Source: an uncultured Selenomonadaceae bacterium (GTDB lineage Bacteria; Bacillota; Negativicutes; Selenomonadales; Selenomonadaceae). From it: DNA of 33,850 bases. The stretch covers positions 1 to 33,850 of the forward strand of contig CAJOIA010000029.1 of NCBI GenBank assembly GCA_905234505.1, written 5' to 3'. Positions 1 through 33,390 of the stretch are shown in pieces. The translations under genes and the position numbers were made by a program. Within the stretch, counting starts at the first letter, position 1; each line of letters begins with the position of its first letter. The notes beneath the pieces were generated by a model, which made no database searches, was not told the origin of the DNA, and was given only the letters and a program-made list of their open reading frames with translations.

Positions 1-120
1 CAAGAGTTTCAAATTCCGCTCCTTGATTATGCAAATTTGTTTACCAATTCTATCGTACGCTAATTTGACACTCGGCTTCAAAATGTCAATCGTCTCATAA
101 ATATTATCTAGCGGATTCAC
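1..120 (-). CDS. Protein kinase-like N-lobe, partial (runs off the window edge)
   Basis: Reading leftwards from a GTG at 120, the frame stays open to the window edge, giving 40 residues that begin V-N-P-L-D-N-I-Y-E. The pattern LAYDRIGKQICIIKER resembles strands 2 and 3 of a protein kinase N-lobe, with IIK in place of the VAIK lysine motif, but no glycine-rich loop is visible before it. An AAAGGA ribosome-binding site lies about 12 bases upstream. From memory, XRE proteins like the neighbouring one are found beside kinase-like genes in Firmicutes, which supports the reading. The two genes are divergent with only 44 bases between them. Only the N-terminus is seen, so catalytic activity cannot be judged, and the start could be wrong. 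Confidence 0.5.
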   Translation of the reverse strand, partial: MNPLDNIYETIDILKPSVKLAYDRIGKQICIIKERNLKLL

Positions 121-164
121 TGCATTGGCGCATCCTTTCTAAAAATAAAGTTGGAGGTATCACT

Positions 165-590
165 ATGAAGGAAAAAGACACTGGCGAACTTTTTAATGAA
201 TTGAAGACCGACCCTGATGTTAAAAATTTTATCAAAAGCAACAAATCAGAATTTACCAAGCCATTCAACGAATATTTAAGTGAACTTATGTGCGAAAGAA
301 ATTTGACGTGTAGCGATATTGCCTTTAAAATGCGGCTGGACCTCAGCTATATTGATCATATTTTTTCCGGCACGAAGGGCATTTCTCGCAAAAGATTGAT
401 AGGTATTACTCGCGTTTTGAATTTGGATTTGGAACAAACTCAATATCTTTTGCGATATGGCGGCTATGCGATTCTCTATCCAAGAAATTCTTGGGACGCC
501 GTGATTATTTCGGCAATTGAACACAATATGACTTTTCTTGATATGAATGAATATCTTCAAAAGCTCGGCGAAACTCCGATTGTTAAATGA
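165..590 (+). CDS. XRE-like helix-turn-helix protein
   Basis: A 141-residue protein. Residues about 35-90 read as a Cro/C1-type helix-turn-helix (LTCSDIAFKMRLDLSYIDHI, then a recognition-like segment around SGTKGISRKRL). The C-terminal part (TQYLLRYGGYAILYPRNSWD and the following NEYLQKLGETP) is typical of an XRE subfamily in Firmicutes that, as I recall it, is often paired with an atypical protein kinase. The start is well supported by TTGGAGG about 8 bases upstream. It probably binds DNA, or acts as the cytoplasmic partner of the divergent kinase-like gene. Its target is unknown. The gene ends convergently with the HEPN/STAND operon. Confidence 0.8.
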   Translation: MKEKDTGELFNELKTDPDVKNFIKSNKSEFTKPFNEYLSELMCERNLTCSDIAFKMRLDLSYIDHIFSGTKGISRKRLIGITRVLNLDLEQTQYLLRYGGYAILYPRNSWDAVIISAIEHNMTFLDMNEYLQKLGETPIVK

Positions 591-599
591 GTTTAACAT

Positions 600-630
600 A
601 AAAAAATCCCGCCGTGTTGTTACAGCAGGA
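600..630 (-). terminator. Intrinsic terminator of the STAND/HEPN operon
   Basis: On the minus strand TCCTGC pairs with GCGGGA (6 bp including one T-G wobble, 12-base loop) and is followed by seven T. On the plus strand the wobble becomes an A-C mismatch, so the hairpin is best for the minus-strand operon that ends at 679. Confidence 0.55.
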
Positions 631-639
631 CATTTTTTA

Positions 640-670
640 GGGGTTAGTGGGTAGGGGTTAGGGGCTAGGG
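640..670 (+). other. G-quadruplex-capable G-run tract
   Basis: Five runs of three or four G (640-643, 649-651, 654-657, 661-664, 668-670) are separated by loops of 2-5 bases, with a TTAGGGG-like periodicity. The tract lies between the convergent XRE and HEPN genes. The G-rich strand is the XRE coding strand, so the complementary transcript would be C-rich. This meets the usual G3+N1-7 pattern for a quadruplex; folding is not shown. Confidence 0.6.
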
Positions 671-678
671 TATGTTAA

Positions 679-1761
679 TCAGTCAGCAAATAAAAAAATT
701 TTTTCCATCTGATTTAAATCGATAATTTTTAAGTGCGAAAGGTCATTTCTGGCACTGTAGGCAAGTTCCAATTTTTCCCAGTCGCCATACTGGAATAGCA
801 TTTTTTTGCCGCCATAATAATGCAAATGCCTCAATTCCATGTCATAAGGGTCGTCAAGCGTTTTTCCAAATTCATCTGTCACGTGCATTATATTTTTCAG
901 CTTGTCGTAATTTTTTTCAATGAGTCGCCCGCGAATTTGCTCCAATATCGACAATAAAAATTGCGTCTGACATTCCCACACTGCGCGATTAAAAATTTTT
1001 TCGTCGAAATGCGGCAGGACAGTTTTAACAAATTCTAATCCATGCGTGTATAATTCGGTCTTCGCGAAATTTTTTGCTAGTATTGCCGATTGTCCCGAAA
1101 GTTTCGCCGCCAATGTCGAAGTATAGAGTTTACCCTGCGTTGTCAACCGCGTATTTTCAAGCAAATTCAGCGCGAAAAATTGTATATCGTACGGCGTTAA
1201 ATAATCGGAAAGGCGCGTTAAACTCGGCGGAGGATTTTCTTCATTCGTCACAAAAATTAATGAGCTACCCATATTCGCGGTATTCTTGTTAAAATCTGTA
1301 ACAGCGGTTGTAAGCCAGTCGAATTTATTTTTCAGCAAAACTATAATGACGTAGCCATTCAGCGAATTTTGCCGCGCCAAATCAATCATCGGCGAATCTT
1401 CATTAAAATCGCGCAGAAAATCCGGCGCAAATTTTTCCGTTAACGCGTCAACAAAATCTTCAACATCAGCCTTGCCGCCATATTCAAAAATCTCAACCAA
1501 CAATGAAACATGCCGCCGCTGAATTTTTTCCCGCAGAATCTGAATAAAGCCCGCCGTGTCAATTTCCGGCAAATGAGTTGCAACTGCGCAATGTTTATCA
1601 ACCGCGTCAATCGCCACTTTCATAAAACGCCGCGCGCCTGGTACTGTTCGCCACCATGAATCTAAATCGTCGCTGTCAAGCTCTTGCAACCGGCTGAAGT
1701 CTATCTTTTTTTCTGAAATTGTATATGAATTTGTTAGTGATATCCTTGAATTTTTTGCCAT
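679..1761 (-). CDS. HEPN-like putative RNase effector, partner of the STAND ATPase
   Basis: A 360-residue soluble protein with no signal peptide or membrane segment, 13 bases downstream of the giant ATPase gene and so in its operon. The start has GAGGT upstream. The C-terminus carries ARNDLSH (R338, H343), matching the R-x4-H signature with N after the arginine that marks HEPN ribonucleases. It sits in a helical region that ends the protein, which is a usual place for the motif. The N-terminal half has a WWRTVPGARRF segment (36-46) and alternating hydrophobic stretches that I cannot assign. HEPN domains paired with STAND NTPases are a known toxin/sensor arrangement in bacterial conflict systems, so a nuclease effector released on activation is the likely role. 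The HEPN call rests on one short motif and could be coincidental. Confidence 0.6.
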   Translation of the reverse strand: MAKNSRISLTNSYTISEKKIDFSRLQELDSDDLDSWWRTVPGARRFMKVAIDAVDKHCAVATHLPEIDTAGFIQILREKIQRRHVSLLVEIFEYGGKADVEDFVDALTEKFAPDFLRDFNEDSPMIDLARQNSLNGYVIIVLLKNKFDWLTTAVTDFNKNTANMGSSLIFVTNEENPPPSLTRLSDYLTPYDIQFFALNLLENTRLTTQGKLYTSTLAAKLSGQSAILAKNFAKTELYTHGLEFVKTVLPHFDEKIFNRAVWECQTQFLLSILEQIRGRLIEKNYDKLKNIMHVTDEFGKTLDDPYDMELRHLHYYGGKKMLFQYGDWEKLELAYSARNDLSHLKIIDLNQMEKIFLFAD

Positions 1762-1774
1762 TTAAATTACCTCG

Positions 1775-4700
1775 TCATTCGGCATTCAGTCCGTACGAAT
1801 CCAGCTTTTCATTGACTTCAGCTTCCGTGCCCATCATATGCCAAAAAGCGTAGCGATTAAATTCAAATTTGCCGTCGACGCGGCGCAAAAGATTAAGCGC
1901 GACCATTTCGTCAAGCAAGCTCAAAAGTTCCGCGTCAGTAAGTTTGGTAATTTTATCAACGCCGCACATCACGCAATTATCTCTGATTTTTGAAACATCC
2001 ACGCTCACCGGACGATTATTCTCGTAATATTCCATTGCGATTGACAACGCTAAAATTTCATAGTAATTGTCATTGTCCAGCGTCAAAGTTTCCTGGAAGC
2101 GCGCGTTAATTTCTTTCTGAAAATCGTTGTTGCTGAGCATATTTTTCAAATAATCATCGTCCAGCGTGTACGGCGGATTTTTCGTCACGTTAAAATTCTG
2201 TTTCGTGTAATTATTTCCGACAGCGTCAACCAACATATTGCAATAATACTGAATCAAGCCAGGATAATAATTCGTGCGGCTGAAAATGGCGCTAATCAAA
2301 CTGTCGTCAGATACGCTGAAGCCAAGATAGCTCATCGGCTTAACGAGCAATTCCATTGCGTCGGACGGGCGGAAAGGCAAAACTGAAATGTGGCTAAGAT
2401 TGCCAAAACTAGAATTTTGTTCAAAGCGGATAACTTTATGCACGCCCGCCAGAACAAATTTAAATTGCCCGCTAAACGCCACAAGCAACTCGCGCAGAAC
2501 ATTTATTGCACTTTCAGAATCGGGGCTACTCAAAAATGTATCGCTTTCGTCGAAGAGCAGGAAAAGTTTTTTGGGTTTAGCAATGCCGCGAAGTTGCCCA
2601 TTCAAAAGTTTGTGCATTTCGAAAGAAAATTCCTGCCAAGTTTCGACCTCGCCAATAAGTTTAGCCGAGGTAAGCTCCAGAACAATTTTTTTCAGCGTTT
2701 CAGTTGTGTTATAGCCCTTCAAATCGATAAAAAATGCGTAATTCAACTGCGCGGGATTGTGCTCAAGACTTCTAACTTGCCTGAGGAGCGCAGATTTACC
2801 AAGTTGCCGCCCGCCATAAACAAAAACCGGACCGGACATATCGCGAATTTTATCAAGTTCCTCAGAGCGCCCAATAAACATTTCCGGAGCAACAACGCCC
2901 TTGCCTTTGGAAGTGTAAGGCTGAACACGCGCGAAAGGTAAAGCTACCTGCAGCATTTTTTTACCGCGATTCGCTTCGTCAAAGCGCGTCAAATACAGCA
3001 TCATAACTTTATCAATCACGATAATATTTTTCAAATTAGCGTCGGTTTTAATGGATTTGGCAAGACTGCGGCGCACCGGCAAAGTCATTGCGTGATCCAT
3101 AAAACAAATTGTGCCGCGCTCGGAAGTCATATCGCCCAAAACTTTAGCAATGTTGTCAGCAGAATCACGATTTGCGCCAAGATAAATAATTTCAAGCCCC
3201 TTAGTAAAGCGCTCCGTGCCGAAAATTGCGAAAGGGTGCGGATAACTATTTCGGGTTTTAACAGGCTCAGGGAAATTGACTGTGTAAGATTTTTGGTTAA
3301 TGGCGTCCATATTTTGCGCGGTAATTTCGCCGCCAGTAAAGCCAAGATGATTCAGCAAATCGATAATTGATCCTCGAATAGCGGGATTTTGTCCAGAATG
3401 AATACCCTGCCACGCGCGCGCAAATTCCAACGCATTTTGAGTTTCGCGGTTAAGTCGATTAATATTACTGCCGACGTGAGCGCGTTGACGATAAGCGCCG
3501 TCAATTGAGCCATTGGCACTTTGAATAGCGCGCAAAAGTCCCTCATATTCGACAAGAAAATCTTTCAGCGTGCGTAAATCGGTGCCGGTAACGTCAAGCT
3601 CTGTCAAAAGGCTAATGCCTTCAGTTTCAAGGCGATTCATATAATCTTCGGCGACAGTCAAATTCATAAGCTCGATTTGGCGGCGTACATTTTCCAAAAC
3701 AGGGTAGCGCGTTTCAAGCTTTTCGTCGTCATTAAGCGTAGTTTTAAGATTTTCTTCAAGTTTTTCAAGGCGTTTAATCAAGGCGTTTTTCTGCGGCAAT
3801 GACGCCTGATTAATCGAATCATAGCAAGCATTTATAAAGCGCTGGAAAAGTCCGGCGTTTTTAGTTTCGTTAAAATGCTCTTTCGCTCTGACAACCGCGT
3901 TAATGTAGGCGTCAATTTTTTCTTGGTCGGTAATGCGTGAATAATTGCGCGCCAGTTCCAAATCATTCAGAAAATCGTTATAAATGCGCTCAATCTGCTT
4001 GTCAATTTGGCGTTCAAGTCCCGCGATTTTTCGGTTAATATCCTCTTCAGAAATTTTGAGCTGCGGCAGAAAATGTTTAGCTAAATCCTGCAAAATTCCG
4101 CAGTCATAATTTTTCAGCGCCGCTTCATACGCCGCCTTTAAATTTTCTTCAAAAGTTTTATCGCGCAGACTTTCTTCAAATTCAGCCGTGCGACTTTTCA
4201 ACGAAAATTCTTCAACGCCGAAAGATTCCATAACCGGCAAATCATTTTCCAGTTCAATGTAACGCGCGCCAAGCAAACATTCATTGTAATTCAGCGCGAC
4301 ATTTTCGCCACTGAGCCGATCAATCAAATTATCCACAAACGCGCGGAAAACTAATTGTCCGAGATTTGCCCGCTTATCCATTCGCGAAATTTGCTTTTTG
4401 AGGTCATTTAAAATATCAAGAGCCTTATCAACCGGCGCGCTTTGTTTGTCATTAACGCTGAAAACTCCAAGATTTTTTTTCGCGTGTACGTAACTTAAAA
4501 GAGTTATCAAAAGTTGCGCCATTATCGTTGTAGCTTTTTTGCGATTTGGACCTTGAAATGGTTCGTGTTTGCGACGCACAAGCTGAACATTCGGATTATC
4601 CCAAACATAATCAAGAAATTCACCAATTTTATCTTCTGAAAAGAGCTCGGCTTTAATTGCGGCGTTGCTGTTATTTACAATTTCGCGCAGGTCAACTTCT

Positions 4701-7180
4701 TCAAAGCGGCAGCAGAAATCTAAAATCTCGTCGATTGTAAAATTTTCCACGTCAAGATATTTTCGCGCTAAACCGGTATTTTTAAAAATCTGCTGAATGA
4801 CGTCACGAACGCGGCGGTGATTGACATCCGAGCGCAAAAAATTATCAATAACATTTTTCATTGATTCGATCTGCGCGAGTACCGTGTCAAATTTATTCTC
4901 GCCGCTTCTGCCGTCCTCATTCAAACAATCGGCAAAAGCGCGATGAGTTTTTTCAGTGAAAATATTAAACAAGCTGATTAAATTTTTTGCAGCGGGACAA
5001 GCCTTCAAAGCGGTATTAGCTTTATCGTCGTTAATTTGTTTCCAGAGCTTTTGAAGTTGATAGCTGGTTGGATTAATAGGCGCAAAGAAATTTTTAATAG
5101 ACGCGGCAAGATTTAAATAGTCGAAAGAATTACCAAGATTCGCTTTGGGAATTTCCGCGCCGCCCGCCCAAAAACTAAATGTATCAAAACTATGCAAATT
5201 GCTAACTGTAAGCGGGTCGTCAAGAATAAAGCCAATTTCTTTCGTGAGATATTCAGCCGCTAATTCGCTATCATCCTCATTAGCAAAATAATCTTTCAAC
5301 GCGTGCAGTGCCAACATACCGCGACCATTTGCGCTGATTTTAAACAAATTCACCACGCTAGACAAAATATCCGCCGTGACAATATCATCATTGGAAGTTT
5401 TTTCGGGTTCAATAACCGGCTCGGGTTCGAATTTAATTTCGGGTATCGGCTCAGGCGCAGGTTCAATTACAACTTCCGGCTCAGTTTCAATGAAATTTTT
5501 AGGTTGGCTCTCGATTTCAACTTCAGTTTCTTCAAAGCCAGGCAGCGTCATTTTGCCTTCTGCGCGATTAACGAAAATATCATCAACGTCATCAATTTTT
5601 TCAAATTCCACTTTGGATTTAGTATTTATGGGATTAGTTTTAGGCGGCGGAGTAAATTTTGGCTTTTCAAAAGGTACGGCAATTTCGCAAATATCTTTCC
5701 ATTCGTCTAAATCAAGTTCATTGCCATCTTGATCTAAAAGACCATCCCAAGTCAGCATAAAGAATTTGATTTTCTTGAAATCTGATGTGTCAAAAAGTTT
5801 TACCCACGCTAAATCTTTTTCAGAGAGTGCAAATAAAAAGACTGCCTTTAATTTGGCAGGCGCTTCCATTTCATGTTTGATTAAAAGTCTGAAACGCGCC
5901 ACTTGATACGCCCAATTTTCACCAAGCAAAATCAGCGAAAACATTAAAATTACGTTGATTGAAGCGTCTTTGCCGAGCATAAGCGCGCGTGCCGCCGGTA
6001 CAGTTGGATTGTAATTGAATTTAATCTTAAGGTCGCCTTTAAGCCGCGCTTCCGACATCAACATAATCGAAAATTGCAAAGAGCTTACCATTTCAGCAAA
6101 ATAATCTTCACTGGGCGAAGGCGGCTGAGTATGCGTAAATGAGCGAATGCAAAGGTCTAATCCAAAATCATTAAGAAAATAAAATTCGCGCCCGCGCCAA
6201 GTGATTTTGTCAACAATACCCCAGCTGAAAAGTTTGCTAAAAATGCGGGGAACAAGCGCGGCAATTTTTTTAGTAAGTTTGCCAGAAACTAAAATATCTT
6301 TCGGGTCGTCGCTAAAAAATATCCTGGTCTTAATTAAAACTTTGAAAATCGGCATTGGGTCAACCGCGTCAAAAAGTTCATGAACTCTGTTATTGAAAGC
6401 TTTGATGGTGAGTTGCTTTTTAACAATCGCCCTGTCGATAACAAAATTTTTTTCGTCAACAAGAACAAGAGAATAATCCAAATCAAGTTTTTCCGCTTTG
6501 CGAAGCACGGCAACCACTCTCTGTTTGGTCGGCTCGGTAGAAATTTTGTCCTTTGTTTCAGAAGCCGGCGTTTCTTCAACTTCCTCAAATTCAACCGGCT
6601 CAGGAAAATGCAAAATGTGACTGGTAAGAATCATACCGATTAGCGGATTGTCAGGAAAACTGGCGGCGATTTTCAAAAATTCATTGGACGAAAAACCTTC
6701 CGCGTTGTCAATAATTTCAACCAACAAAATAAATCTCTCGGCTTGCTTGTCGAATTGCGCGGCGTCGAATTTGTCAGCGCGGTTTCTAAGGTGTTCAGCT
6801 TGCTTTTTAACTCGCGTCACAGCATCCAAAATCGCTTGATCTTCAGAATCCACAACTAAAGTGGAAATTCGCGCAAGAGTACTGTTAATTTCGTCGCGTT
6901 TACAATTTTGCTCCAATACACTAAGACTTTTGTCAATCTGCTCAAGTTTTCTGGAATTTGCAGCGCGCTTAAGCTGTTCAACACCAGCAAGCTTTTCTTG
7001 AACTTCCAAAATTTTCTTCAGAAGGAAATTTACTTCTTCTGAATCGGCGTCAATGAAAAAACCTTTGTCAATCGACGCGGCAATTTCAGATAGAATTGGG
7101 CGTAAATGACGTCGCGATTCTATCATTTGCCCAAATAAACCTCGAAGCTGATCAATCATTTCTGAGCTTAGATTATCCAT
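1775..7180 (-). CDS. Giant STAND-type P-loop ATPase (candidate sensor)
   Basis: A 1801-residue protein. The P-loop lies near residue 1455 (GGRQLGKSALL) and the Walker B near 1543 (LFLLFDESD), preceded by a typical FIGRSEEL entry motif and followed by GVH and a helical lid region. The C-terminal ~70 residues look like a winged helix (ELLSLLDEMVALNLLRRV). The N-terminal ~150 residues are coiled coil, an acidic Pro/Glu-rich linker lies around 550-640, and long coiled-coil stretches fill roughly 1000-1300. A start at ATG 7180 is supported by AAGGAGGG. STAND ATPases are oligomerising switches in immunity and signalling; the large, unfamiliar N-terminal 1400 residues would be the sensing part. No nuclease motif was recognised here, and the downstream HEPN-like protein is the likely effector. 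The operon stands alone, with the divergent 7354 gene upstream. Confidence 0.75.
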   Translation of the reverse strand: MDNLSSEMIDQLRGLFGQMIESRRHLRPILSEIAASIDKGFFIDADSEEVNFLLKKILEVQEKLAGVEQLKRAANSRKLEQIDKSLSVLEQNCKRDEINSTLARISTLVVDSEDQAILDAVTRVKKQAEHLRNRADKFDAAQFDKQAERFILLVEIIDNAEGFSSNEFLKIAASFPDNPLIGMILTSHILHFPEPVEFEEVEETPASETKDKISTEPTKQRVVAVLRKAEKLDLDYSLVLVDEKNFVIDRAIVKKQLTIKAFNNRVHELFDAVDPMPIFKVLIKTRIFFSDDPKDILVSGKLTKKIAALVPRIFSKLFSWGIVDKITWRGREFYFLNDFGLDLCIRSFTHTQPPSPSEDYFAEMVSSLQFSIMLMSEARLKGDLKIKFNYNPTVPAARALMLGKDASINVILMFSLILLGENWAYQVARFRLLIKHEMEAPAKLKAVFLFALSEKDLAWVKLFDTSDFKKIKFFMLTWDGLLDQDGNELDLDEWKDICEIAVPFEKPKFTPPPKTNPINTKSKVEFEKIDDVDDIFVNRAEGKMTLPGFEETEVEIESQPKNFIETEPEVVIEPAPEPIPEIKFEPEPVIEPEKTSNDDIVTADILSSVVNLFKISANGRGMLALHALKDYFANEDDSELAAEYLTKEIGFILDDPLTVSNLHSFDTFSFWAGGAEIPKANLGNSFDYLNLAASIKNFFAPINPTSYQLQKLWKQINDDKANTALKACPAAKNLISLFNIFTEKTHRAFADCLNEDGRSGENKFDTVLAQIESMKNVIDNFLRSDVNHRRVRDVIQQIFKNTGLARKYLDVENFTIDEILDFCCRFEEVDLREIVNNSNAAIKAELFSEDKIGEFLDYVWDNPNVQLVRRKHEPFQGPNRKKATTIMAQLLITLLSYVHAKKNLGVFSVNDKQSAPVDKALDILNDLKKQISRMDKRANLGQLVFRAFVDNLIDRLSGENVALNYNECLLGARYIELENDLPVMESFGVEEFSLKSRTAEFEESLRDKTFEENLKAAYEAALKNYDCGILQDLAKHFLPQLKISEEDINRKIAGLERQIDKQIERIYNDFLNDLELARNYSRITDQEKIDAYINAVVRAKEHFNETKNAGLFQRFINACYDSINQASLPQKNALIKRLEKLEENLKTTLNDDEKLETRYPVLENVRRQIELMNLTVAEDYMNRLETEGISLLTELDVTGTDLRTLKDFLVEYEGLLRAIQSANGSIDGAYRQRAHVGSNINRLNRETQNALEFARAWQGIHSGQNPAIRGSIIDLLNHLGFTGGEITAQNMDAINQKSYTVNFPEPVKTRNSYPHPFAIFGTERFTKGLEIIYLGANRDSADNIAKVLGDMTSERGTICFMDHAMTLPVRRSLAKSIKTDANLKNIIVIDKVMMLYLTRFDEANRGKKMLQVALPFARVQPYTSKGKGVVAPEMFIGRSEELDKIRDMSGPVFVYGGRQLGKSALLRQVRSLEHNPAQLNYAFFIDLKGYNTTETLKKIVLELTSAKLIGEVETWQEFSFEMHKLLNGQLRGIAKPKKLFLLFDESDTFLSSPDSESAINVLRELLVAFSGQFKFVLAGVHKVIRFEQNSSFGNLSHISVLPFRPSDAMELLVKPMSYLGFSVSDDSLISAIFSRTNYYPGLIQYYCNMLVDAVGNNYTKQNFNVTKNPPYTLDDDYLKNMLSNNDFQKEINARFQETLTLDNDNYYEILALSIAMEYYENNRPVSVDVSKIRDNCVMCGVDKITKLTDAELLSLLDEMVALNLLRRVDGKFEFNRYAFWHMMGTEAEVNEKLDSYGLNAE

Positions 7181-7276
7181 AGGAATCCCTCCTTAAAAAA
7201 ATTAATAATCTGCCTTAAAGCATTGCAAAGTAATTTGACGCCCGCTGAAAAAAATCCTGCCGCGCCCGCGTAAATC

Positions 7277-7326
7277 ACCTCACTTGATTTAAATTGCCAA
7301 TCGGTATATACTAGGTGAGGTATACC
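7277..7326 (+). promoter_or_regulatory. Promoter with nested inverted repeats
   Basis: A sigma70-type promoter, TTGATT (7284-7289), 17-base spacer, TATACT (7307-7312), lies before the 7354 gene. It is bracketed by ACCTCAC (7277-7283) and its complement GTGAGGT (7315-7321). A second repeat, GGTATA (7303-7308) and TATACC (7321-7326), overlaps the -10. Repeats across and just after the -10 are what an operator for a repressor would look like; the regulator is unknown. Confidence 0.5.
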
Positions 7327-7353
7327 AAAAAATTACTGGGAGGGATTTTATAA

Positions 7354-7731
7354 ATGAGGACAAACATTATTGACGACGACGAAGTGTATATTCCGGATAT
7401 TGGCGACACTGACGAGGAAATTGATATTCATGGACAATATCCGCGCTCAAATGTTGGAATTGCGCTTGGTTGGTCGCCTTTGGAACAACAAATGTTCGAT
7501 TTGCTGTTAATGAATCGTTTTGCGAAATATGACGGTGAAGTTATTGAAGAAAGCGCGAAGGCAATTATTCACTTGGTGAAAACTTTTCCATCGCACGAAA
7601 TTTCCCGCATTGCCGCTATTGCGCTCATGTCTTTTCAGCTTAGCGCAACAGAGGATAAAACTTTCGAGGACGAATATAATAAATACGTCGAATACATCAG
7701 AAAACATCCCGAAGACGCGGAAATTTATTAA
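7354..7731 (+). CDS. Acidic hypothetical protein
   Basis: A 125-residue protein that I do not recognise. The first 30 residues are very rich in Asp, Glu and Ile. Residues 40-100 look helical, including MFDLLLMNRFAKY and an Ala/Ile-rich ISRIAAIALMSF segment, and the tail is charged. There is no signal peptide. GGGAGGG precedes the ATG. It is divergent from the giant ATPase gene, with 173 bases between, and its stop lies in the ribosome-binding site of the rhamnose gene, so the two are probably co-transcribed. It could belong functionally to either neighbour. Confidence 0.7.
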   Translation: MRTNIIDDDEVYIPDIGDTDEEIDIHGQYPRSNVGIALGWSPLEQQMFDLLLMNRFAKYDGEVIEESAKAIIHLVKTFPSHEISRIAAIALMSFQLSATEDKTFEDEYNKYVEYIRKHPEDAEIY

Positions 7732-7749
7732 GAGGTGAACAAACCTAAT

Positions 7750-8601
7750 ATGATTTTGGTTACAGGAATTACCGGACAACTCGGTCACGACGTGATTAAG
7801 GAACTTGAGCGGCGCGGTGAAGATTTTATCGGCACAACCAGAAACGAAATTGATTTGACAACAGAGGAAGGCGCAAAAAGTTTTATTATAGAAAAAAAGC
7901 CGGACATAGTGATTCATTGCGCGGCTTATACCGCCGTTGACAAAGCAGAAGCAGAAGCTGAACTTGCTTTAACTGTCAATGGAATGGGCACGCGCCGCAT
8001 TGCTGAAGCTTGCCGCGAAATTGGCGCGAAAATGCTTTATATCAGTACCGATTATGTTTTTGGCGGCGAAGGATCGGAGCCTTACGAAATTAACGCTGAA
8101 AAAAATCCAATTAACATTTACGGCACAAGCAAACTTTTGGGCGAAAATTCGGTTGCGGCAATTCTGCGCGATTATTTTATAGTGAGAATAAGCTGGGTTT
8201 TCGGCGCTAATGGGAAAAATTTCGTCAAAACGATGCTGGAACTTGCTAAACGTCGCCGCAAACTTCAAATTGTCGACGATCAAATTGGTAGCCCGACATA
8301 TACAGCTGACCTTGCGCCGCTTTTGGTTGATATGATTCACAGCGATAAATACGGCATTTATCACGCCACGAACGAAGGCTTTTGCAGTTGGGCAGAATTT
8401 GCGGAAGAAATTTTTAAACAAATCGGCAAAAAGATTAACGTTGAAAAAATTCCCTCTGAAAATTATCCCACGCCCGCGAAACGTCCGTTAAATTCCAGAC
8501 TTAGTAAGAAAAGTTTGGACGACGCCGGTTTTAATCGCTTGCCAGATTGGCAGGACGCCGTCCGCAGATTTTTAATTGAGATTGACGGTATTAAAAAATA
8601 A
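7750..8601 (+). CDS. rfbD: dTDP-4-dehydrorhamnose reductase
   Basis: About 283 residues, the usual length. It catalyses the NAD(P)H-dependent last step of dTDP-L-rhamnose synthesis in the cytoplasm. The N-terminus has the Rossmann motif GITGQLG, then CAAYTAVDKAE, STDYVFGG and the catalytic YGTSK (Tyr/Lys). The C-terminus has the family's GSPTYTADLA and PLNSRL. I chose ATG 7750 rather than the in-frame GTG 7735, because the GTG lies inside the AGAGGTG ribosome-binding site. The other rhamnose genes (rfbA, B, C) are not in the window. Confidence 0.9.
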   Translation: MILVTGITGQLGHDVIKELERRGEDFIGTTRNEIDLTTEEGAKSFIIEKKPDIVIHCAAYTAVDKAEAEAELALTVNGMGTRRIAEACREIGAKMLYISTDYVFGGEGSEPYEINAEKNPINIYGTSKLLGENSVAAILRDYFIVRISWVFGANGKNFVKTMLELAKRRRKLQIVDDQIGSPTYTADLAPLLVDMIHSDKYGIYHATNEGFCSWAEFAEEIFKQIGKKINVEKIPSENYPTPAKRPLNSRLSKKSLDDAGFNRLPDWQDAVRRFLIEIDGIKK

Positions 8602-23902: not shown

Positions 23903-25429
23903 TCAATCGAATTTGTAATAATCGACAGATTTAATTTCAATTGGTGCGTCAACCGGCGCGAAAACAATATCATCAGAAGTTGTACGCGGATAGACGCGCG
24001 TGGACATAGCGTATTCGCCGCCATTAACGAAAAGTTCAATCGAAGAGCGGTCAAGGTAGAAACGCCATTCCATAGTGTCGCAAGGATCAATCTCGAACTC
24101 GCGAACGCCCTTGCCACCTGCGCCGGCAAAGTCGCGGTTGAGCGCAATAACTCTTTCATTGGGCTCATAGCTGAAGATAGTTTTTTCGGGTTGTTCAGAG
24201 TCGCTGCCTTCACCAACGCGCAATTCGATTTTGAAAGCCTGTTTCGGGTCAATTTCAACAATAAGTTCACCGACGCTGCCTTTTACGCCGTCAAGTTTTG
24301 TAGGCTTATCAATTTTAACATTTTGATAGCCGACGTGTTCTTTGCGCAGACCTTTAAGTTCTTCCGGCGGAACTGTAAGAACTTTGCCATCTTCGCGCAT
24401 TTTGAGTTCACGCGGAATAGTGAGCAAAGTTGCCCAGCCGTCAGCTTGTTCTGGGAAAGGACTTTGCCACGCAGCCATCCAAGCGATAATGAAGTAACGT
24501 CCAGTATCCGGATGTTTCATCATTGTGGTTGCGTAGAAGTCGAAGCCATAATCGAAAGTATAAAAATCGCCGTGAGTGAATACGCCTTGATCGTAATCGA
24601 GCGAGCCAACCATATAACCGGCTTGGTGAATATTGTGGAAGAGGCGACCTTGCGGCGGTACATGTTGCGGAGAAATTATCATAACATACTTGTCGCCGAA
24701 ATGCGCAAAGCCTGGACATTCCCACATCGTGCCTTCTGAATAGTCAGGTTTAGAAATGGCAACAACAGATTTATACGTCCAGTTAAAGAAATCGCTGGAT
24801 TCGAACATAACAATTTGCGTGCGAGAACGGTCGCGGATTCTGTTACCTATTACGCAGTAATATTTGCCGTTGTGCTCCCAAATTTTTGGATCTCTGAAGT
24901 CAATGTTTGCGATAATCGGGTGATCGTTTGGAATGTCAATGACAGGGTTTTTCTCGTATTTCGTGAAATGGATACCGTCTTCAGAATAAGCATAGCACTG
25001 ACGTTCGGTAACGTTACCGCCACCTGAGCTTCCGGACGGATTATAAGCGGAAGGGTTGGCGGAAGAATTAACGCCGCCAGGACCATTGAAGCGCTGGCTG
25101 GTGTACATAAGCCAAAGCTTGCCTTCAAATTCTATGCCGCAACCGCTGAAGCAACCGTCCCAGTCGTACCATTCATGACCTTCTGAAAACGCGCCAGGCG
25201 CAATTGCAATGGGTTGATGTGTCCAATGGCAGAAATCTTTACTTGTGGAATGTCCCCAATGCATTGGTCCCCAATCGACTGAAAAGGGATGATGCTGATA
25301 GAAAATGTGATATTCGCCCTTGTACCAGCAGAAACCGTTAGGATCGTTGAGCCAGCCAACTGGCGGAGCAGTGTGATAGAAAGGATACCATTTTGAAGCC
25401 TGTGCAACTTCAGGGGGTGGAAGAGCCAT
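23903..25429 (-). CDS. GH32 beta-fructosidase (sucrose/fructan hydrolase)
   Basis: A 508-residue retaining glycosidase that cleaves beta-fructosides such as sucrose, sucrose-6-phosphate or fructans. The five-blade propeller carries GWLNDPNG (nucleophile Asp29), then IDFRDPK (transition-state Asp) and WECPGF (acid/base Glu). The C-terminal beta-sandwich has FYLDRSSIELFVN. No signal peptide, so it should be cytoplasmic and act on imported sugar. A Ser/Gly/Asn-rich insertion of about 25 residues (around 125-150) sits where the family usually runs straight from LMYTG to QCxAYS. GGAGGTATCAAC precedes the ATG. It is a single-gene unit with no PTS, permease or LacI regulator beside it. Confidence 0.93.
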   Translation of the reverse strand: MALPPPEVAQASKWYPFYHTAPPVGWLNDPNGFCWYKGEYHIFYQHHPFSVDWGPMHWGHSTSKDFCHWTHQPIAIAPGAFSEGHEWYDWDGCFSGCGIEFEGKLWLMYTSQRFNGPGGVNSSANPSAYNPSGSSGGGNVTERQCYAYSEDGIHFTKYEKNPVIDIPNDHPIIANIDFRDPKIWEHNGKYYCVIGNRIRDRSRTQIVMFESSDFFNWTYKSVVAISKPDYSEGTMWECPGFAHFGDKYVMIISPQHVPPQGRLFHNIHQAGYMVGSLDYDQGVFTHGDFYTFDYGFDFYATTMMKHPDTGRYFIIAWMAAWQSPFPEQADGWATLLTIPRELKMREDGKVLTVPPEELKGLRKEHVGYQNVKIDKPTKLDGVKGSVGELIVEIDPKQAFKIELRVGEGSDSEQPEKTIFSYEPNERVIALNRDFAGAGGKGVREFEIDPCDTMEWRFYLDRSSIELFVNGGEYAMSTRVYPRTTSDDIVFAPVDAPIEIKSVDYYKFD

Positions 25430-31345: not shown

Positions 31346-32737
31346 TCAGTTTAGTAGATAAATCGTATCGTCAATAAATTTTAGCGCCGCTTTTTCTGAA
31401 AGTATCGCATTTGGCTCTTCTAGTCTTATTTCTTCGCGCAGAGCTTTTAATTGCGGGGCTAGCGTTTGGCGTGACAATGACTGCAACGCTAATCTGCTGG
31501 CTTGCGCCAATCTTTGAAATTGTTCAAGTTGCGGTTTGCATTCGATTAAAATTTCTGGCGGTAAATTTTTTAGCAACGTCGCCGCCGATTTTTCCATTTC
31601 CGCGATTAAAACTGAAAGCTGATAAGAGTCTAATTTTTTGCCTTCGAGAAAATTTGAGATAACCGCATTAGCCGCCGCTTCAAATTCCGGCGCGTCAGCT
31701 GCTCCAACTTTTGCCCAAGAATTTTCCATATGCCGCGAATGACTTGCAAAAATTTTCATAGCGGGCGCCAGTTTGCCGAATTGAGCAATTAAAGCAGCGT
31801 CCCAAGATTTTTCAGCGTCATAAGTTTCTGGCGAATTGGAATAATCCGCGCCTGTCGCCAAAGCAATTTTCGAAAGTTCATATTGTCCCATTGGATTAAA
31901 AAAAATCGCCTGCACATTTGTAGTTGGCAGTTTTTCAATTGCGCCGAGTGCCAATTTCGAATTTTTATTGCCGCCGGTCGTCAATGCGTAATCGTTCACT
32001 GGATAATTCCACCAAATACCCAAATCTCGCTCGTAAATTTTGCAGGCAGCTTGAAAATCTTCGTTAGTAATACCGTCGCAAACAACGCCGTCGCCCGTGT
32101 ACAGCACAACAATTCGCTTATTCAACGTTTGGGCAAAATCGACAGTGTAATTATTCGCGTTCTGAATCATATCAAGGCGGTAATATTCTGTCGGCACGGT
32201 GATTAGCGGCTCAATGTCATAATGTTTTTCGCGCAGAGCCGCTTGCAATTTGTTCAGAAATTCGGCTTGAAGTTTGCCGTCTTCGTGGTGAACGCCATTT
32301 TCGTCTTTCAAATCGTCAAAGAAAATCGCGAAATTACGCACGCCGATATCATAAACAGAATCTAATTTGCGCAAAATCTTATTGAAATCTTCGTCGCCCT
32401 TTTCGCCGATGTAATTCAAAGTTTGCCCTGGCGAAATTGCAAAAATAAATCGCACGCCATTTTTATTAGCTGTCTCAACTAAATTTTTCAGCTCGGCAAG
32501 CTTGGATTTTGGATAGGAAACGCGCCATTTTTCGCGATGGTAAGGATCATCTTTCGGCGCGTAAATGTAGGCGTTTAAATTATTCAGCCGACAAAAATTC
32601 ATTAAGTCCAGCCGATTTTTATTTGTCCACAATTCGCCATAAAAGCCTTCAATCACGCCGCGCATTGGTATAGGCGTTGCAAAACTCGTTCCTGAAATCA
32701 AAAGCGCAATTAACACTGTCAATAAAAATTTTTTCAT
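31346..32737 (-). CDS. GH84 beta-N-acetylglucosaminidase
   Basis: 463 residues with a signal peptide ([20 protein letters not shown]), so periplasmic or secreted. It begins [13 protein letters not shown], the GH84/O-GlcNAcase hallmark. The catalytic pair is Asp141-Asp142 in [11 protein letters not shown], and [16 protein letters not shown] and WWNYPVND line the active site. It would release terminal GlcNAc from glycans or glycoproteins by substrate-assisted catalysis. The C-terminal ~130 residues are helical. The ATG (AGGAAA upstream) overlaps the stop of the gene before it as ATGA. Confidence 0.92.
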
Positions 32738-33390
32738 TGTTGGCTTTCCTGGTATTGGCGGAAATTTTTCAAAATGCAAATTGGGCGTTTCTCTGAAGCG
32801 TTGCCAAATGGATTATCTAAGAGCAAATCGCTTGCAAGTTGCGCGTTCATTCCTGGAGTTGCTCCGACAATTCGCGAGCGTTTCAAATCGTTAACATCGG
32901 CAATCATAGCGCCAAAACAACCGAGCCGGTCTTTAAGCGCCTGGCAAACTTGATCGGGATTTTCCGGACCATAAACAACGCATTTGTCGAAAGGCGGCAT
33001 TGTACCGGTAACATCGTCAATAAGCGCCGCTTGACGTCCGCCCCATTTATAAAACAGACCGCGTTGCCCAATGACCTTGCCCAAAAATCCGGCGAACAAT
33101 GCAAATGCTACGCGCCATTCGCCTTCTTTGCGCATTAAAGCCTGCATACCGTGCGGCGTTGCCAAAGAGCCATAATCCGGAATAAACCGGCAACAAAAAC
33201 GCGCCAGCAAACTAATCTGCATTTCGTCGGGGCGAACAATATTGCCCTGCGTTATCGCAACAACGCTTTCTGCCACCGTCACAACATCATCTGGTCCAAT
33301 GCGGTTTTTCGTGTACTTTTCAATCGCGTCAACAATATTATCTTTCGGCGTCAAAATGCGCGTCGATACCGGAATTGTTTCTACTGCCAT
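32734..33390 (-). CDS. Coenzyme F420:L-glutamate ligase-like protein
   Basis: 218 residues. [20 protein letters not shown], then [19 protein letters not shown], matches the N-terminal part of CofE/FbiB-type ligases. [21 protein letters not shown] and [12 protein letters not shown] follow the family's metal- and substrate-site order. True CofE adds glutamates to F420-0. Many bacteria without F420 carry this paralog, and no F420 gene is seen here, so the substrate is probably another acid or peptide. AAGGAG ends the preceding gene and serves as its ribosome-binding site; it overlaps GH84 by 4 bases. Confidence 0.75.

Follow-up and report, generated by a model that had tools for sequence, protein, structure and literature searches.

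The window analysed here covers bases 1-33,850 of a contig of 48,018 bases, which belongs to the 1.79-Mb assembly of a rumen bacterium. Its named relatives, 15 in all, are ruminant-derived genomes of Selenomonadaceae. An initial annotation of this DNA had proposed a two-gene pair, and this was confirmed: two open reading frames (ORFs) of 1801 and 360 residues (gene 1 and gene 2) follow one another on the minus strand, 13 bases apart (Table 1). The pair had also been credited with its own terminator. A hairpin with a T-run does lie after gene 2, but 10 terminator-like hairpins were found in positions 1-8000 of the window as compared to 11.3 expected from shuffled sequences. The neighboring XRE gene (165-590, plus strand) could be recovered through a match to HTH_3, albeit at 22.0 bits, just under the cut-off of 23, and the kinase-like neighbor is a 40-residue open-ended fragment (1-120) that is cut off by the contig start. 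The proposal that the pair sits in an accessory conflict island was not borne out in the window. Pfam matches at E ≤ 0.001 were obtained for 24 of the 26 other ORFs scanned in the window, mostly to housekeeping or metabolic families, and no defence family was among these scanned genes. Gene 1 and gene 2 themselves matched no family in the PADLOC (2023) models and nothing in NCBIfam at E ≤ 1.

Table 1. Features of the gene pair and its surroundings, in window coordinates
Feature	Position	Strand	Basis
Gene 1, giant STAND-type P-loop ATPase, 1801 aa, presumed sensor/switch	1775..7180	-	ORF and profile match
Gene 1 residues 1-200, N-terminal helical/coiled-coil-like region	6581..7180	-	Read from sequence
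Gene 1 residues 254-352, winged-helix-like domain	6125..6421	-	
Gene 1 residues 367-503, alpha/beta, REase-like topology, without conserved PD-(D/E)xK	5672..6082	-	
Gene 1 residues 504-603, disordered acidic linker	5372..5671	-	pLDDT under 50
Gene 1 residues 604-1278, mainly helical middle region	3347..5371	-	Predicted structure
Gene 1 residues 1285-1420, conserved alpha/beta domain ahead of ATPase	2921..3328	-	
Gene 1 residues 1433-1640, STAND/ORC-type ATPase core	2261..2884	-	AAA_22 and conserved columns
Walker A, GGRQLGKS, gene 1 residues 1456-1463	2792..2815	-	Conserved columns
Walker B, D1544-E1545, gene 1	2546..2551	-	Conserved columns
Gene 2, inactive STAND fused to HEPN-like domain, 360 aa	679..1761	-	ORF, alignment, predicted fold
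Gene 2 residues 25-252, inactive STAND/ORC-Cdc6 fold without P-loop	1006..1689	-	Predicted fold
Gene 2 residues 254-360, helical HEPN-like domain	682..1002	-	Predicted helices; sub-threshold HEPN families in relatives
RNDLSH, R338-H343, predicted RNase motif	733..750	-	Alignment conservation
Ribosome-binding site AAGGAGG, gene 1	7188..7194	-	By eye from sequence
Ribosome-binding site GAGG, gene 2, inside the 13-base gap	1770..1773	-	By eye from sequence
Terminator-like hairpin and T-run, after gene 2	606..631	-	Hits of this sort not above chance frequency

The C-terminal P-loop module that had been assigned to gene 1 was verified by profile search. AAA_22 matched residues 1450-1582 above its cut-off (E = 1.7e-6), and ATPase_2, AAA_14 and AAA_16 also matched the ATPase core, each below its own cut-off. 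The Walker A string was present in 49 of 50 rows of the gene 1 alignment, and G1456, R1458, G1461 and K1462 were conserved in all 49 rows with letters at these positions. Similarly, the Walker B residues D1544 and E1545 were conserved in 49/49 and 46/49 rows, respectively, and R1585, a candidate arginine finger position, was conserved as well. A GxP-type motif and a winged helix would be expected to follow a STAND ATPase; a TNYxPGL-like stretch is conserved around P1640. An active REase in gene 1 was considered on the topology of residues 367-503 and was dropped, the PD-(D/E)xK residues not being conserved. A PDB profile search with gene 1 gave 0 hits at E ≤ 0.01, and Foldseek gave no match at E ≤ 0.001 for residues 221-1420.

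According to its predicted structure, gene 2 is an inactive STAND protein fused to a HEPN-like domain. The STAND/ORC-Cdc6 fold of residues 25-252, which the initial annotation had missed, rests on predicted structure together with structure matches. When the 30 rows of one alignment (A1) were inspected by eye, the P-loop was absent after strand 1. A G4GK[ST] string was found in 10 of 55 gene 2 rows, those within A1 carrying it in later loops, and arginine was absent among the residues conserved at ≥95% in the N-terminal half. For the C-terminal half, the R-x4-H motif noticed earlier proved to be highly conserved: in the alignment of 55 gene 2 relatives, R338, N339 and H343 did not vary in any of the 54 rows that have letters there, the one remaining row being cut by a contig end. 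RxxxxH turns up by chance in 35% of shuffles of the gene 2 protein, and at the level of sequence a single occurrence is weak evidence by itself, whereas conservation across relatives is not. Among 29 sequences that include 8 plasmid relatives from Rhodothermota, Actinomycetota and Pseudomonadota, the sole invariant columns were E309, R338 and H343; the R/H invariance in the plasmid rows is partly by choice, because these rows were cut around the motif. The Thiodictyon motif was aligned by the gene 2 profile without such cutting.

Evidence for the fold of the gene 2 C-terminus was less direct. Sub-threshold Pfam matches were obtained for the C-termini of the 29 members, including HEPN_Swt1 in 6 (best 0.0028), Abi_2 in 3, and HepT-like, HEPN_RiboL-PSP and HEPN_MAE_28990 in 1 each, in a list that also contained unrelated families. 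HEPN_Swt1 was matched by 2 of 30 members when the whole protein was scanned. For the gene 2 C-terminus of the window itself, Pfam returned two DUFs (0.095 and 0.14) and no HEPN family. This region is predicted to be helical (254-283, 285-289, 310-319, 325-342 and 349-359). No HEPN domain was listed among the structure matches of gene 2, which lie mainly in residues 25-252. PDB profile searches gave 4 unconvincing hits for the whole protein and 5 for the HEPN part, with no HEPN domain among the latter. The putative HEPN assignment is thus one by motif, not by fold. A prediction that clearly lacks a HEPN fold, named in the initial annotation as a refuting outcome, was not encountered in these indirect tests. 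It could be argued from the lack of a structural match and from the sub-threshold rank of every Pfam HEPN match that the gene 2 C-terminus has no catalytic function and is a structural or adaptor domain, and that the pair works only through ATP-driven binding of DNA or RNA. However, invariance of E309, R338 and H343 is what catalysis predicts, and we regard a dead domain as highly improbable.

To describe the pairing of the two genes, we applied a gene 1 profile (E ≤ 1e-10) and a gene 2 profile (E ≤ 1e-3) to 189 genomes of the family. Gene 1 was detected in 64 genomes and gene 2 in 61; both were present in 60, gene 1 only in 4, gene 2 only in 1 and neither in 124 (Fisher test, 3e-43, for genomes that are not independent). 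Three of the cases with gene 1 only (G013, G023 and G038) stop at a contig edge and the fourth (G081) is a fragment, as is the case with gene 2 only (G115). The alternative raised in the initial annotation, that the ATPase occurs mostly without its partner, was therefore refuted. Outside the genus (n = 123), both genes were found in 8 genomes, gene 1 alone in 1, gene 2 alone in 1 and neither in 113. The genes shared a contig in 54 of the 60 genomes and lay on different contigs in 6 (G008, G010, G028, G041, G109 and G113); in G028 and G008 they are truly apart, because other ORFs come after gene 1 there. At two loci (L107 and L121), gene 2 lies beside a gene that looks TsaE-like by eye, gene 1 being on another contig of the same genome. 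The gap between the genes was -110 to 137 bases in 47 of 49 measured loci, with the exception of L118, where gene 1 is in two pieces, and L108. At L108 (genome G012), gene 1 is separated from a broken gene 2 by a HEC-05-like gene (3349-5205; DUF262/GmrSD-like by eye). Pairwise distances of the two proteins correlated across 47 loci with r 0.97, a value uncorrected for shared ancestry.

Strict pairing, along with the plasmid-borne relatives described below, might also be expected of a toxin-antitoxin-like pair, in which gene 1 keeps a HEPN toxin encoded by gene 2 inactive and which serves stabilisation or stress control, not invader sensing. HEPN domains are common toxins (see also PMC3710099). 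On the other hand, gene 2 and gene 1 are on separate contigs in 6 of 60 genomes. In addition, a multi-domain ATPase of 1801 residues is far larger than antitoxins are known to be, and we consider this arrangement improbable.

The distribution of the pair is uneven. Within the genus, gene 1 was found in 55 of 66 genomes and gene 2 in 52, while each gene was found in 9 of the 123 genomes from the rest of the family. The gene 2 profile matched 32 of 300 genomes of the class and 3 of 398 in a draw from the phylum, namely the genome of the window and 2 of the 397 others, one of these being a weak C-terminal match. In seven loci, gene 1 is flanked by the same RmlD, cupin, PIN-TRAM and CheB genes. 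In 17 loci of a distant subclade with approximately 20% identity to the window protein, the same conserved gene, which looks CBS-domain-like by eye, lies close to the pair. In many loci of this subclade (L067-L094), gene 1 is preceded by several ORFs in a row that belong to a single cluster (c0) and by eye resemble hexapeptide acetyltransferases. As compared to one relative (L105), dN/dS was ~0.13 for gene 1 and ~0.08 for gene 2, and 0.05, 0.04 and 0.10 for the flanking RmlD, PIN-TRAM and CheB genes, with dS similar to that of the pair. These results show that the gene pair is locally vertically inherited and under purifying selection. Near-fixation of this sort in a genus is not what a defence system usually shows, and it weighs most heavily against a defence reading.

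Presence of gene 1 in most genomes of the genus, stable neighbors and purifying selection would all be consistent with a domesticated housekeeping complex for RNA processing or stress response, in which the ATPase remodels or loads a HEPN RNase on cellular rather than invader RNA. In contrast to this expectation, gene 1 is missing from 11 of the 66 genus genomes, some of which are incomplete assemblies, and apparently broken copies, which may be assembly errors, were seen in G012, G113, G173, G182 and G081. The broken copies and the genus genomes without gene 1 suggest that the pair is dispensable. Its patchiness outside the genus, and plasmid relatives that lie near defence genes and are fused to pPIWI-RE domains, also argue against a housekeeping complex, which we hold to be unlikely. 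Carriage by phages or prophages was also considered: no match to the pair was found among 50,697 phage records, and a viral-contig scan confirmed 0 of 8 candidate stretches, weak evidence in that one short pattern was used.

Distant relatives were found on plasmids. In a tblastn search of 72,556 plasmids, the ATPase half of gene 1 was found on 24, and a Thiodictyon query identified 27, its own plasmid included. The same search with gene 2 found none, and with the Thiodictyon gene 2 relative it found that protein itself only; because of this, plasmid partners of gene 1 were found by profile only. We examined 20 plasmid loci. The gene 1 profile matched 19 of these, in two pieces in L171 and L173 and not at all in L174. 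A gene 2 relative lay directly downstream in 9 of the 20, and all nine carried RxxxxH (RN in 7, RR in 2). Five of the nine had an extra C-terminal domain; AAA_33 was matched by both of the two extra domains scanned (L160, 7.8e-15; L162, 5.4e-4, below the cut-off). In the remaining 11 loci, a recognised gene 2 partner was missing; the second gene encoded a protein of ~925 residues in L165 and L166, a TPR protein in L161 and a PLD-helicase in L157, and elsewhere none was recognised. On plasmids of Microvirga, Bradyrhizobium and Azospirillum oryzae, the N-terminus of the gene 1 relative is fused to pPIWI-RE X, MID and RNaseH domains, and in A. ramasamyi this arrangement is split over two ORFs. 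Window gene 1 had no pPIWI-RE match in Pfam. Each of the three fused giants (L168:282-10463, L169:1182-10481 and L175:765-10532) precedes an iSTAND-HEPN protein that continues into an additional C-terminal domain.

Eight proteins from these and related loci, hand-picked by eye and mostly for a defence-like look, were scanned with PADLOC, and 5 of the 8 matched models. These were DruH3 adjoining the Methylocystis pair, an E1-E2/JAB protein near the Agrobacterium pair, which we take to be a CBASS gene, a type I methyltransferase near the Streptomyces pair, PDC-S37/Hhe near the Salinibacter pair, and HEC-05 in L108. A patatin-like neighbor and two gene 2 relatives gave no PADLOC match, and four plasmid giants gave weak ones (best 0.00088). 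The context in the window is housekeeping; some plasmid pairs are near known defence genes. The Druantia DruH3 match beside the Methylocystis pair (L164:10491-13955) is near full-length, and a DEAD/DEAH helicase gene comes after it.

The pair had been put forward as a candidate undescribed system. However, a mobile operon of this layout was predicted in 2021 as the nSTAND2 two-gene system, in which one gene encodes an active STAND NTPase and the other an eroded STAND that carries GT4 or HEPN as a fusion (Kaur et al. eLife 2021, PMC8195603, section 15, Fig. 6C). As described there, the system resembles the pair in being a two-gene operon with a STAND module in each protein (in gene 2 by predicted fold only), in the eroded NTP-binding motifs of one partner, here gene 2, in having the effector on the eroded partner, most commonly GT4 or HEPN and here HEPN by motif, and in being mobile and a predicted counter-invader system. 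The description also places a conserved arginine finger in both STANDs; here R1585 is conserved in gene 1, and no arginine is among the residues of the gene 2 N-terminal half at ≥95% conservation. Section 15 makes no mention of the size or N-terminal architecture of the active partner, of pPIWI-RE fusion or of an extra kinase, and the near-fixation in one genus is a point of difference from the system as described in that section. nSTAND2 is a family near CR-ATPases, S29/Dap3 and RNA12, no nSTAND2 model was among the Pfam matches, and the pair is likened to nSTAND2 by description, not by alignment. By this analogy, the pair is not undescribed in kind and belongs to a kind already predicted. 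Our literature search found no experimental test of such a two-gene system of active and inactive STANDs.

Other known systems share parts of this architecture. The iSTANDs of BREX (BrxB, BrxF and the PglW C-terminus) and of MoxR-vWA systems are described in parts of PMC12839542 and PMC8195603 as having a STAND/ORC-Cdc6 fold, having lost the Walker motifs and working with an effector; unlike these, the iSTAND of gene 2 is fused to a HEPN-like domain. BREX was rejected as an identification, with no PglZ, BrxC or methyltransferase among 28 window ORFs scanned with Pfam. In DUF499-HEPN systems (Hma / Type-1 BR), HEPN is likewise linked to a STAND/ORC-type AAA+ ATPase, but, according to portions of PMC12839542 and PMC3710099, the active ATPase itself carries the HEPN domain there, and the operon also encodes a methyltransferase along with a helicase. 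This identification was also rejected: gene 1 had no DUF499 match, and no methyltransferase or helicase was among the neighbors scanned. pPIWI-RE systems are alike in the domains that are fused to giant gene 1 relatives on alphaproteobacterial plasmids, and the operon described in the pPIWI-RE paper (PMC3702460) has three genes, including those for a REase and a DinG helicase. The main text of that paper contains no word starting with HEPN, and no print record of a pPIWI-RE/STAND/HEPN system was found in open PMC papers, searched partly as titles and the beginnings of abstracts.

We consider it likely that the pair is a two-gene, NTPase-gated RNase system that acts abortively, most likely against phages or plasmids. 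The defence role and the combination of HEPN with STAND, both proposed initially, are supported by the invariant motifs, the strict pairing, the plasmid relatives and some of the neighbors of these relatives. Paired active and eroded STAND proteins have been suggested to form a toroidal hetero-multimer, and inactive STANDs to serve possibly as nucleic-acid receptors (both in parts of Kaur et al., PMC8195603). In the RNase system favored here, the active STAND domain of gene 1 and the inactive one of gene 2 would pack as neighboring AAA+ subunits. The wHTH-like, REase-like and helical parts of gene 1 would serve to sense a nucleic acid or protein that derives from an invader, and ATP binding or hydrolysis would then re-arrange the complex. 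HEPN domains that are brought together (dimerise) in this way might cut tRNA, rRNA or mRNA, and the resulting growth arrest would stop the cell in an infection-triggered self-shutdown. The pair is conserved, probably immune and of an already predicted kind.

If this is correct, the pair offers a concrete, well-sampled example of a system type that is otherwise known as a 2021 prediction, and the residues for mutation would be K1462, D1544, E309, R338 and H343. It would also bear on whether an inactive STAND acts as an adaptor or as a sensor in coupling an active ATPase to an effector. The less expected parts are the pPIWI-RE-fused relatives, which suggest a route by which an Argonaute-like protein triggers cell shutdown, and the near-fixation in one genus, which raises the question of why a presumed defence system becomes almost core. 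As a tentative and rather doubtful extension, the pair might represent one version of a modular switch in immunity, with exchangeable inputs feeding into a giant STAND ATPase and an iSTAND adaptor relaying them to exchangeable outputs. Inputs would be a coiled coil/wHTH in this genus and a pPIWI-RE Argonaute-like module in alphaproteobacteria; outputs would be HEPN, HEPN and kinase, or other partners. The pPIWI-RE form would then be a nucleic-acid-guided Argonaute that sets off a suicide RNase of the HEPN type under STAND control, and the version in the rumen would be one nearly fixed in a whole genus.

Two minor observations were made during the scans. An RNA family scan of 4 loci returned one tRNA, and further along the window lie a GH32 glycosidase gene (23903-25429) and a beta-N-acetylglucosaminidase (NAGidase) gene (31346-32779).
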